From contig NHFY01000094.1 of NCBI GenBank assembly GCA_002170165.1, forward strand, positions 38,486 through 102,485: a stretch of 64,000 bases of DNA. Direction: 5' to 3'. Within the stretch, counting starts at the first letter, position 1; every line of letters starts with the position of its first letter. Below the pieces are notes generated by a model. That model did no database searches and was not told the DNA's origin. It saw only the letters and a program-made list of their open reading frames with translations. The translations under genes and the position numbers were made by a program. Shown piece by piece: positions 27,961 to 29,772 of this stretch. This DNA is from Flavobacteriales bacterium TMED123 (lineage in GTDB: Bacteria; Bacteroidota; Bacteroidia; Flavobacteriales; BACL11).

Positions 27961-27968
27961 TATCTTTG
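27961..27968 (+). promoter_or_regulatory. -7 promoter box TATCTTTG upstream of NMO-like gene
   Basis: Exact TAnnTTTG match, 28 bases before the ATG at 27997, so this gene probably has its own promoter and is not just a lysC cotranscript. Confidence 0.55.
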
Positions 27969-27996: not shown

Positions 27997-29772
27997 ATGA
28001 AGAAACAACATACATTTCATATTCCAGTAATGGGCACTGCATTTACAGCAGATACACCACTTAAAGTATCTCGTTTTGGTATAGACTCTGTAATTGCATT
28101 GGCTGATGATGTGTTGTTGGAGCGTTTAAGGAAAGTGTATGCCGAAAAAAATGATTTAGAGTATGAAGAAATCAAAAACAATACTAAAGATTATAGGGCC
28201 GACAGAATTACTTCTTACTTAAATTTAGTAAACAAGTTAGCAGCTCAAAAGTATGATGAATACACTACTGCTACTAAAGAGAAAGTAGAATCTCTTAAAA
28301 CATTTTTTGCTTCTTTTCCAGATTCTTCTCAACTGAAAAAAGAATTCAATAATTTGACAGACTTTAATCTTGATGATATTTCTGAGTGGTTGAAGGAAAA
28401 TTTGAATATGGGGAGTATTGATGTGAATATTATGACTAAGGTAGATAAGCCAAATTTTTTCAAAAATGAGGCACTCCCATCAGAATACAATGATGCGCAT
28501 TCTGCTTTAAGGGGCTATGCAAATTCTGATTTGGCATCTTCCATTATTTTTTCAGCCGGAATGAATCCAAGATTATACGGATATATTTCACAATTTGATG
28601 ATTTTTTCCCAAATGCTGATGGTCACATTAAAAAGAAGATTGTTATCAAGGTGAGTGATTATCGTTCTGCTTTAATTCAAGGTAAGTTTTTGGCAAAAAA
28701 GGGGCTTTGGGTTTCAGAGTATAGGATTGAATCTGGGCTGAATTGTGGTGGTCATGCATTTGCAACAGATGGTTATTTGATGGGTCCAATTTTATCAGAA
28801 TTTAAAGAAAAAAGAAAAGAGTTAATTAGTGAAGTTTTTGCCATTTGTAAAGAGGCGCTTAAAACAAATAACAAATTAGTCCCAGAGCATCCTTTGGCTT
28901 TAAGAATTACAGCTCAGGGTGGAGTAGGAACAGCTGAAGAACATGACTTTTTGATTAAGTATTATAATCTGGATTCAGTAGGTTGGGGAACGCCTTTTTT
29001 ATTGGTGCCAGAAGTGACTACAGTTGATGATACAACCAGAGCTCAACTTATACAGGCGAAAGAGAAAGATCTGTATTTGTCAAATGTATCCCCACTTGGT
29101 GTACCTTTCAATAATTTAAGAAATGCTTCCAAAGAGGTTGAGAAATGGGACAAGGTAGAAAAAGGAAAACCAGGTAGCTCCTGTCCTAGAAGGTATCTGG
29201 CTTTTAGTAAAGAATATGACGAAAAGGGCGTTTGTACAGCATCCCGATTGTATCAAAAAAATAAAATTGAAGAGCAAGGAATTTCTAAAAAAATAACAGA
29301 TAAAGTTTGTTTATGTATGGGGCTTTCTGCCGCTTCAGTTGTAAGTAATAATATAGAGACTAGAGAGAGTAAGGCAGTTTCCATTTGCCCAGGACCAAAT
29401 ATGGCTTATTTTGACAAATTGCTATCTCTTGAAGATATGACTAAGCACATATATGGGCTGGAAAGCTTTATGAGTAGAGCTGACAGGCCAAATATGTTTG
29501 TGAAAGAGCTAAATCTATACATGGACTATCTCAAAAATAAATTTGATGAGGCAAAATCAGATTGGGATAAAAAACAAGAAAAATATTTTAATCGTTTTTT
29601 AGAAAATATGAATGATGGTGTTGCTTATTACAATAATCTTTTTGAGCATCTGAAAAACAAATACGGGGAAACAAAAGAAGATACTTTAGCCCACTTAGAA
29701 AAAACAAAAAGCAAATTGTCAGCAATTACCTTGGAAATAGAGGCACTTGCTGAAGTGCCTGCAGCTAGTTAA
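27997..29772 (+). CDS. Uncharacterised protein with NMO/FabK-like TIM-barrel motifs
   Basis: A 591-residue soluble protein that I do not recognise by name. Two stretches resemble the flavin-dependent nitronate monooxygenase/FabK barrel: GLNCGGHAFATDG at 247-259 (compare E-x-GGH, the FMN/substrate loop) and RITAQGGVGTAEEH at 303-316, followed by SVGWGTPFLLVPE at 327-339 (compare A-GGI, then GV-MGT-F). A 100-residue charged helical insert follows the first strand (about 35-135). Cysteines cluster near the end: Cys396, 413, 438, 440 and 464, in SSCPRR, GVCTAS, CLCMG and ICPGPN. The last 90 residues look coiled-coil. The gene stands alone and shares a TTAA stop overlap with the convergent EamA gene. 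Confidence 0.6.
   Translation: MKKQHTFHIPVMGTAFTADTPLKVSRFGIDSVIALADDVLLERLRKVYAEKNDLEYEEIKNNTKDYRADRITSYLNLVNKLAAQKYDEYTTATKEKVESLKTFFASFPDSSQLKKEFNNLTDFNLDDISEWLKENLNMGSIDVNIMTKVDKPNFFKNEALPSEYNDAHSALRGYANSDLASSIIFSAGMNPRLYGYISQFDDFFPNADGHIKKKIVIKVSDYRSALIQGKFLAKKGLWVSEYRIESGLNCGGHAFATDGYLMGPILSEFKEKRKELISEVFAICKEALKTNNKLVPEHPLALRITAQGGVGTAEEHDFLIKYYNLDSVGWGTPFLLVPEVTTVDDTTRAQLIQAKEKDLYLSNVSPLGVPFNNLRNASKEVEKWDKVEKGKPGSSCPRRYLAFSKEYDEKGVCTASRLYQKNKIEEQGISKKITDKVCLCMGLSAASVVSNNIETRESKAVSICPGPNMAYFDKLLSLEDMTKHIYGLESFMSRADRPNMFVKELNLYMDYLKNKFDEAKSDWDKKQEKYFNRFLENMNDGVAYYNNLFEHLKNKYGETKEDTLAHLEKTKSKLSAITLEIEALAEVPAAS

Follow-up and report, generated by a model that had tools for sequence, protein, structure and literature searches.

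A strongly diverged, putatively FabX-related flavoenzyme subfamily widespread in Bacteroidota

The window, the whole stretch of 64,000 nucleotides analysed here from Flavobacteriales bacterium TMED123, encodes a 591-residue protein. This protein is best read as a member of a new, unnamed and strongly diverged subfamily related to FabX and widespread in Bacteroidota. The first-pass annotation had suggested an undescribed flavoenzyme subfamily, and the predicted fold and the invariant motifs and cysteines support that reading. FabX of H. pylori (HP0773; PDB 7e1q) binds FMN and, in its C-terminal part, a [4Fe-4S] cluster held by C300, C304, C308 and C320. It dehydrogenates decanoyl-ACP using H182, FMN and the cluster, and the product is isomerised to cis-3 (PMC8626469).

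The 591-residue reading frame claimed at 27997-29772 is present on the forward strand with an ATG start. Its parts, and one element ahead of it, are as follows.

27961..27968, + strand: TATCTTTG, match to the -7 element TAnnTTTG of Bacteroidota, between the preceding aspartate kinase gene and the 591-residue frame
27997..29772, + strand: gene of the putative 591-residue FabX-like flavoenzyme, ATG start, stop codon included in the span
28015..28104, + strand: barrel strands 1-2 (residues 7-36) with the TPLKV segment, from predicted secondary structure and conservation
28105..28413, + strand: helical insert (37-139) between strands 2 and 3, less conserved, from the model and the alignment
28414..28446, + strand: strand 3, SIDVNIMTKVD (140-150), N144 aligned with the FMN-contacting N99 of FabX
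28648..28701, + strand: KVSDYRSALIQGKFLAKK (218-235), end of strand 5 and positively charged helix, from conservation and alignment to FabX
28726..28758, + strand: IESGLNCGGHA (244-254), putative FMN/catalytic motif, H253 equivalent to FabX H182 and E245 to FabX E175 in the alignment
28915..28932, + strand: QGGVGT (307-312), predicted FMN-phosphate loop after strand 7, from the model and the FabX alignment
28975..28998, + strand: SVGWGTPF (327-334), putative FMN loop of strand 8, G329 where FabX has Q240 in the alignment
29182..29400, + strand: cysteine subdomain (C396, C413, C438, C440, C464) with GPN 466-468, predicted [4Fe-4S] site near FMN
29494..29751, + strand: C-terminal helical tail (500-585) outside the FabX match, from the model

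The Bacteroidota -7 element has the consensus TAnnTTTG, and TATCTTTG is possibly the gene's own promoter. The motifs picked out earlier by eye, GLNCGGHAFATDG at residues 247-259, RITAQGGVGTAEEH at 303-316 and SVGWGTPF at 327-334, were confirmed, and the five cysteines listed with them (396, 413, 438, 440 and 464) were all found in place. A sixth cysteine, C250 inside CGGH, had gone uncounted.

Predicted fold and relation to FabX

The AlphaFold2 model (28-row alignment; pLDDT 85, pTM 0.88) is a TIM barrel with eight strands in barrel order (residues 7-9, 31-35, 141-145, 182-185, 214-219, 239-245, 303-307 and 327-329). The predicted fold of the 591-residue protein is well supported. H. pylori FabX was the top match both in Foldseek (E 8.6e-10) and in VIA-align 2 (7e1q; Z 25.7, 332 residues aligned, 3.1 A, 19% identity). 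It was followed by FabK (Z about 22), NMO-type proteins (18-22), PfaD (about 20-21) and then IMPDH (Z 15). The best solved relatives are all FabX, FabK, PfaD or NMO. The TIM-barrel fold and membership of the NMO/FabK/FabX superfamily are very likely. The earlier idea of an NMO/FabK-like barrel was right about the superfamily, and the closest relative is FabX rather than NMO or FabK. The barrel itself, which had been placed at 180-345, spans about 1-345 in the model, with strands 1-2 ahead of the insert. The charged helical insert was recovered at residues about 37-139 between strands 2 and 3. The expected C-terminal tail is helical at 500-585, and everything past residue 490 is helical and lies beyond the region matched to FabX.

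Sequence searches with the window protein in Pfam, NCBIfam, PHROG and PDB returned chance matches only, none of them significant, and the family profile had no significant match in the PDB. None of the 28 alignment members matched the Pfam NMO family PF03060 at E 0.1. The FabK model TIGR03151 did not match the window protein at E 10; FabX and FabK proteins both match this model. The family had no FabX match in phmmer and hmmsearch, whereas the family profile (A1) matched the FabX profile (A2) at E 2.8e-5, with 25% identity over 232 columns that take in VNIM, GGH, GGI/V, SPxGxP and KPxxCP. The A2 set was gathered from Bacteroidales with PF03060 and the CxxxCxxxC motif, and one of its members matches HpFabX at 8e-72. 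The NMO-type proteins of Desulfatitalea were rejected as FabX, having no FabX motif. The match to the FabK profile (A3) was at E 8e-4, and control profiles of 22 unrelated neighbour-gene families gave 0.026 or worse.

The profile alignment paired family and FabX segments as GSIDVNIM/GVIGVNIM, ESGLNCGGH/VEGPKAGGH, QGGVGT/GGGIYTG, VGWGTPF/VQMGTRF, SPLGVP/SPVGMP, KPGSSCP/KPxKCP and GVCTASR/PYCIAKA. When the family was aligned with FabK, CPGPNMAYF...LEDM paired with the last flavin-side glycine segment. FabX contacts FMN through N99 and E175, and its catalytic residue is H182 (PMC8626469). All three are retained in the family as N144, E245 and H253, but Q240 is replaced by G329. By our matching of residues, the helix of KVSDYRSALIQGKFLAKK (R223, K234, K235) may correspond to the ACP-docking helix alpha7 of FabX.

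The window family resembles FabX in its TIM barrel, GGH histidine, FMN-contacting asparagine and glutamate, cysteine subdomain after strand 8 and final GxN/helix segment. It differs in length (591 residues against 363), in its longer helical insert and added helical tail, and in being missed by ordinary HMM search. FabK enoyl-ACP reductase shares the barrel, GGH, GG loop and strand-8 loop, but it has an NAD(P)H region, lacks the cysteine cluster, is about 314 residues long and gave the weaker profile match. UfaA/NGO1024 of Neisseria gonorrhoeae is comparable as an anaerobically induced FabX-type protein of a denitrifier (PMC3032703, PMC11300592). Compared by description, it is about 36% identical within the classical FabX group, a level at which the window family is undetectable. 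Nitronate monooxygenases (PF03060) share the fold and GGH, but none of the 28 aligned family members matched their Pfam model, and characterised NMOs have no Fe-S cluster (PMC8626469). PfaD is alike in its barrel and fold match, whereas it is a partner of polyunsaturated fatty acid synthases and has other accessory domains.

Family spread, conservation and the cysteine subdomain

The protein had been called an orphan, which is true of its annotation only, for the family is common. In the GTDB collection, 27 contigs carried relatives at 43-85% identity. The family was present in 30 of 60 near-relative genomes and in 152 of 392 sampled genomes of the window's phylum (about 39%). It also occurred in 3 of 59 genomes of Desulfobacterota, the phylum of a Desulfatitalea MAG; a plasmid search found no members. 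One genome (G054, C1:4371170-4372865) carries a second, broken copy with in-frame TGA stops besides an intact copy elsewhere, and another (G207, contigs C25 and C31, loci L084 and L086) carries two intact full-length copies. Read by eye, the genes on contig C21 of genome G000 (locus L159) resemble those of Alphaproteobacteria, which may point to slight contamination of the window's draft assembly.

Conservation was assessed over 166 distinct sequences that share 39-85% identity with the window protein. C250, C396, C413, C438, C440 and C464 were invariant in 166/166, and so were NCGGH, QGG, W330, F334, S365-P366, G368, GPN 466-468, N144, K148, K218, R223 and E245; K234/K235 were nearly invariant. 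The GGH and GG motifs and the cysteines, on whose conservation the first-pass annotation had staked its proposal, thus varied in none of the homologues. Given this invariance, the motif and cysteine pattern is far beyond chance.

The FabX cluster motif CxxxCxxxCx7-11C is not kept in the window family. Only the outer FabX ligands C300 and C320 have partners in the profile alignment (C396 and C413, respectively), and C438, C440 and C464 are new relative to FabX. Because FabX C304 and C308 have no counterpart, C438 and C440 are likely replacement ligands as judged from the alignment; an alternative alignment by eye would place C438 at FabX C320. C464 sits about where FabX has F339/T340 beside FMN. 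The subdomain stands in place of the NAD(P)H region of FabK, as it does in FabX. We believe that the C-terminal cysteine subdomain probably holds a [4Fe-4S] cluster beside the flavin. Since FabX already has one after its barrel, an Fe-S cluster at that site would not be unprecedented.

Gene neighbours, upstream sites and co-occurrence

The neighbourhoods of 105 family loci were compared, with Pfam identities for representatives and the remainder read by eye. The genes nadA (14/105 loci, 11 within three genes) and nadB (12/105, 10 within three genes) were found near the family gene in both orientations. Taking about 3,500 genes per genome, chance alone would put nadA within three genes at about 0.2 of 105 loci, a figure to be read with the relatedness of the loci in mind. 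Rrf2 regulators were near the gene at 13/105 loci (9 within three genes) and ScdA/RIC at 5/105, adjacent in four. Other repeated neighbours in the 105 loci were nosZ/D/F/Y/L, a NirK-like copper oxidase, cbb3 oxidase with its assembly genes, hemN, NrdG/NrdD and Crp/Fnr. By function, the recurrent neighbours belong to denitrification, NO repair, NAD synthesis and microaerobic respiration. They differ in arrangement and orientation from locus to locus, and the linkage is therefore no single inherited block. No fatty-acid genes recurred beside the family in these loci. A 407-aa polytopic-looking protein with no Pfam match (L088:14181-15404; also L085, L119, L257 and L259) adjoins denitrification, cbb3 and nadAB genes. 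The genes around the window copy are of the housekeeping kind (mfd, phosphofructokinase, aspartate kinase, EamA, ctaA and gldD), and a conserved operon around this copy was looked for and rejected.

A palindrome scan upstream of family genes found TGA[C/T]-N4-[G/A]TCA, an over-represented dyad of the CRP/FNR type, whereas the classical FNR box TTGAT-N4-ATCAA was not enriched there. ATGAC-N4-GTCAT with up to one mismatch was present in 17/99 family upstreams and 19/1147 controls. In a second set, TGA-N6-TCA was present in 22/39 family upstreams versus 35/369 controls and TGAC-N4-GTCA (one mismatch) in 14/39 versus 21/369, while strict ATGAC-N4-GTCAT was not enriched. With one gene per genus, TGA-N6-TCA preceded the family gene in 21 of 66 genera compared with 9.7% of controls (p 1e-6). 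The window copy has no CRP/FNR-type site upstream. Within one genus (g17, among L106 and L243-L275), TGA-N6-TCA was upstream in 21/21 sampled members.

Classical FabX was present in 5/392 phylum genomes, 0/5 with the window family and 0/5 with a desaturase. In the order of genome G456 (60 genomes), FabX was found in 25, the window family in 12 and both in one; FabX thus occurred in 1/12 family-positive versus 24/48 family-negative genomes (p 0.0096, kinship ignored). PF00487 desaturases, which depend on O2, were present phylum-wide in 118/152 family-positive (78%) and 116/240 family-negative genomes (48%), again with kinship ignored. The trend was reversed in the window's GTDB family (5/21 family-positive versus 9/16 family-negative; kinship ignored). 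No genome of that GTDB family had FabA over the cut-off. NrdD, the class III ribonucleotide reductase taken to mark an anaerobic way of life, showed no association with the family. One relative (G012, loci L005 and L157; 99% complete, two contigs) codes for the family protein but for neither a PF00487 desaturase nor a FabA that passes the cut-off.

Proposed function and rival explanations

The protein may be an FMN/[4Fe-4S] acyl-ACP dehydrogenase/isomerase for unsaturated fatty acid synthesis at low oxygen, a reading to which we give slightly less than an even chance. The analysis shows the reading frame, its conservation, its predicted fold, its sequence relation to FabX and the statistics of its neighbours and upstream sites; the FMN, Fe-S cluster, ACP substrate, reaction and electron acceptor are all parts that we infer. 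The substrate would most likely be an acyl chain carried by acyl carrier protein. H253 would remove the C2 proton while the hydride passes to FMN, and the [4Fe-4S] cluster would store one electron. The trans-2 product would isomerise to cis-3 and return, now unsaturated, to fatty acid synthesis. A carrier other than O2, which the additional helices might dock, would take the electrons away. The enzyme would serve as a source of unsaturated fatty acids when oxygen is low or conditions are nitrosative.

In gonococci, anaerobic conditions induce the FabX-type gene NGO1024 together with nitrite reductase (PMC3032703). This gene is cited as indispensable for making unsaturated fatty acids anaerobically, the acceptor being unknown (PMC11300592). 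The catalytic residues that the window family shares with FabX and the positive helix at the ACP-docking position fit a FabX-like role for the family in facultative anaerobes. The near-exclusion with FabX, the phylum-wide desaturase link and the low-oxygen/NO neighbours point the same way. However, the fatty acid reading has weak points in the lack of fatty-acid genes nearby and in the reversed desaturase trend inside the window's GTDB family. We also counted against it the missing FabX cluster motif, the replaced Q240, the unassociated NrdD, the respiratory, NO and NAD neighbours, and the window copy's place among housekeeping genes without a CRP/FNR-type site. Branched saturated chains, moreover, can largely meet the needs of many Bacteroidota.

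A nitrosative-stress function is a serious rival to the unsaturated fatty acid function, and we consider it unlikely. With the same fold and cofactors, the protein would carry out redox reactions of NO-derived small molecules (e.g. nitroalkanes/nitronates) or pass electrons in NO defence, like an NMO with an Fe-S relay. ScdA/RIC, Rrf2, the nos genes, the NirK-like oxidase and cbb3 oxidase as neighbours agree with this, as do the NMO structures among the fold matches. But the closest structure and profile are FabX and then FabK, Pfam NMO gave no match, and the family also occupies loci without NO genes, the window included. FabK and PfaD as close fold matches, together with the retained positive helix, would equally suit a FabK-type acyl-ACP/acyl-CoA enzyme (an enoyl reductase, or a dehydrogenase for e.g. 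lipid- or amino-acid-derived acyl chains) with no tie to unsaturated fatty acids. This is improbable, since the window's genome already has a FabK-like gene and the cysteine subdomain replaces the FabK NAD(P)H region. A redox enzyme of NAD biosynthesis, re-oxidising NadB or protecting NadA anaerobically, would explain why nadA and nadB are among the commonest neighbours. Most loci lack both genes and NadB can use fumarate, so this explanation is very improbable.

Returning to the fatty acid reading, we tentatively propose, and regard as rather doubtful, that the family is a second, separately built Fe-S flavoenzyme route to O2-independent unsaturated fatty acids, widespread in Bacteroidota. 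This route would have a new set of cluster ligands (CxC plus distant cysteines), a dedicated helical electron-transfer tail and CRP/FNR-type, possibly Rrf2, control.

FabX is reported as the only Fe-S type within its flavoenzyme family (PMC8626469). If our reading is true, a second Fe-S type would be added to this family. We know of no settled account of oxygen-free unsaturated lipid synthesis in facultatively anaerobic Bacteroidota that rely on O2-dependent desaturases. Naming a candidate whose catalytic residues are clear makes this question directly testable, and the candidate is an unannotated, strikingly conserved putative enzyme carried by about 39% of the sampled genomes of the phylum.
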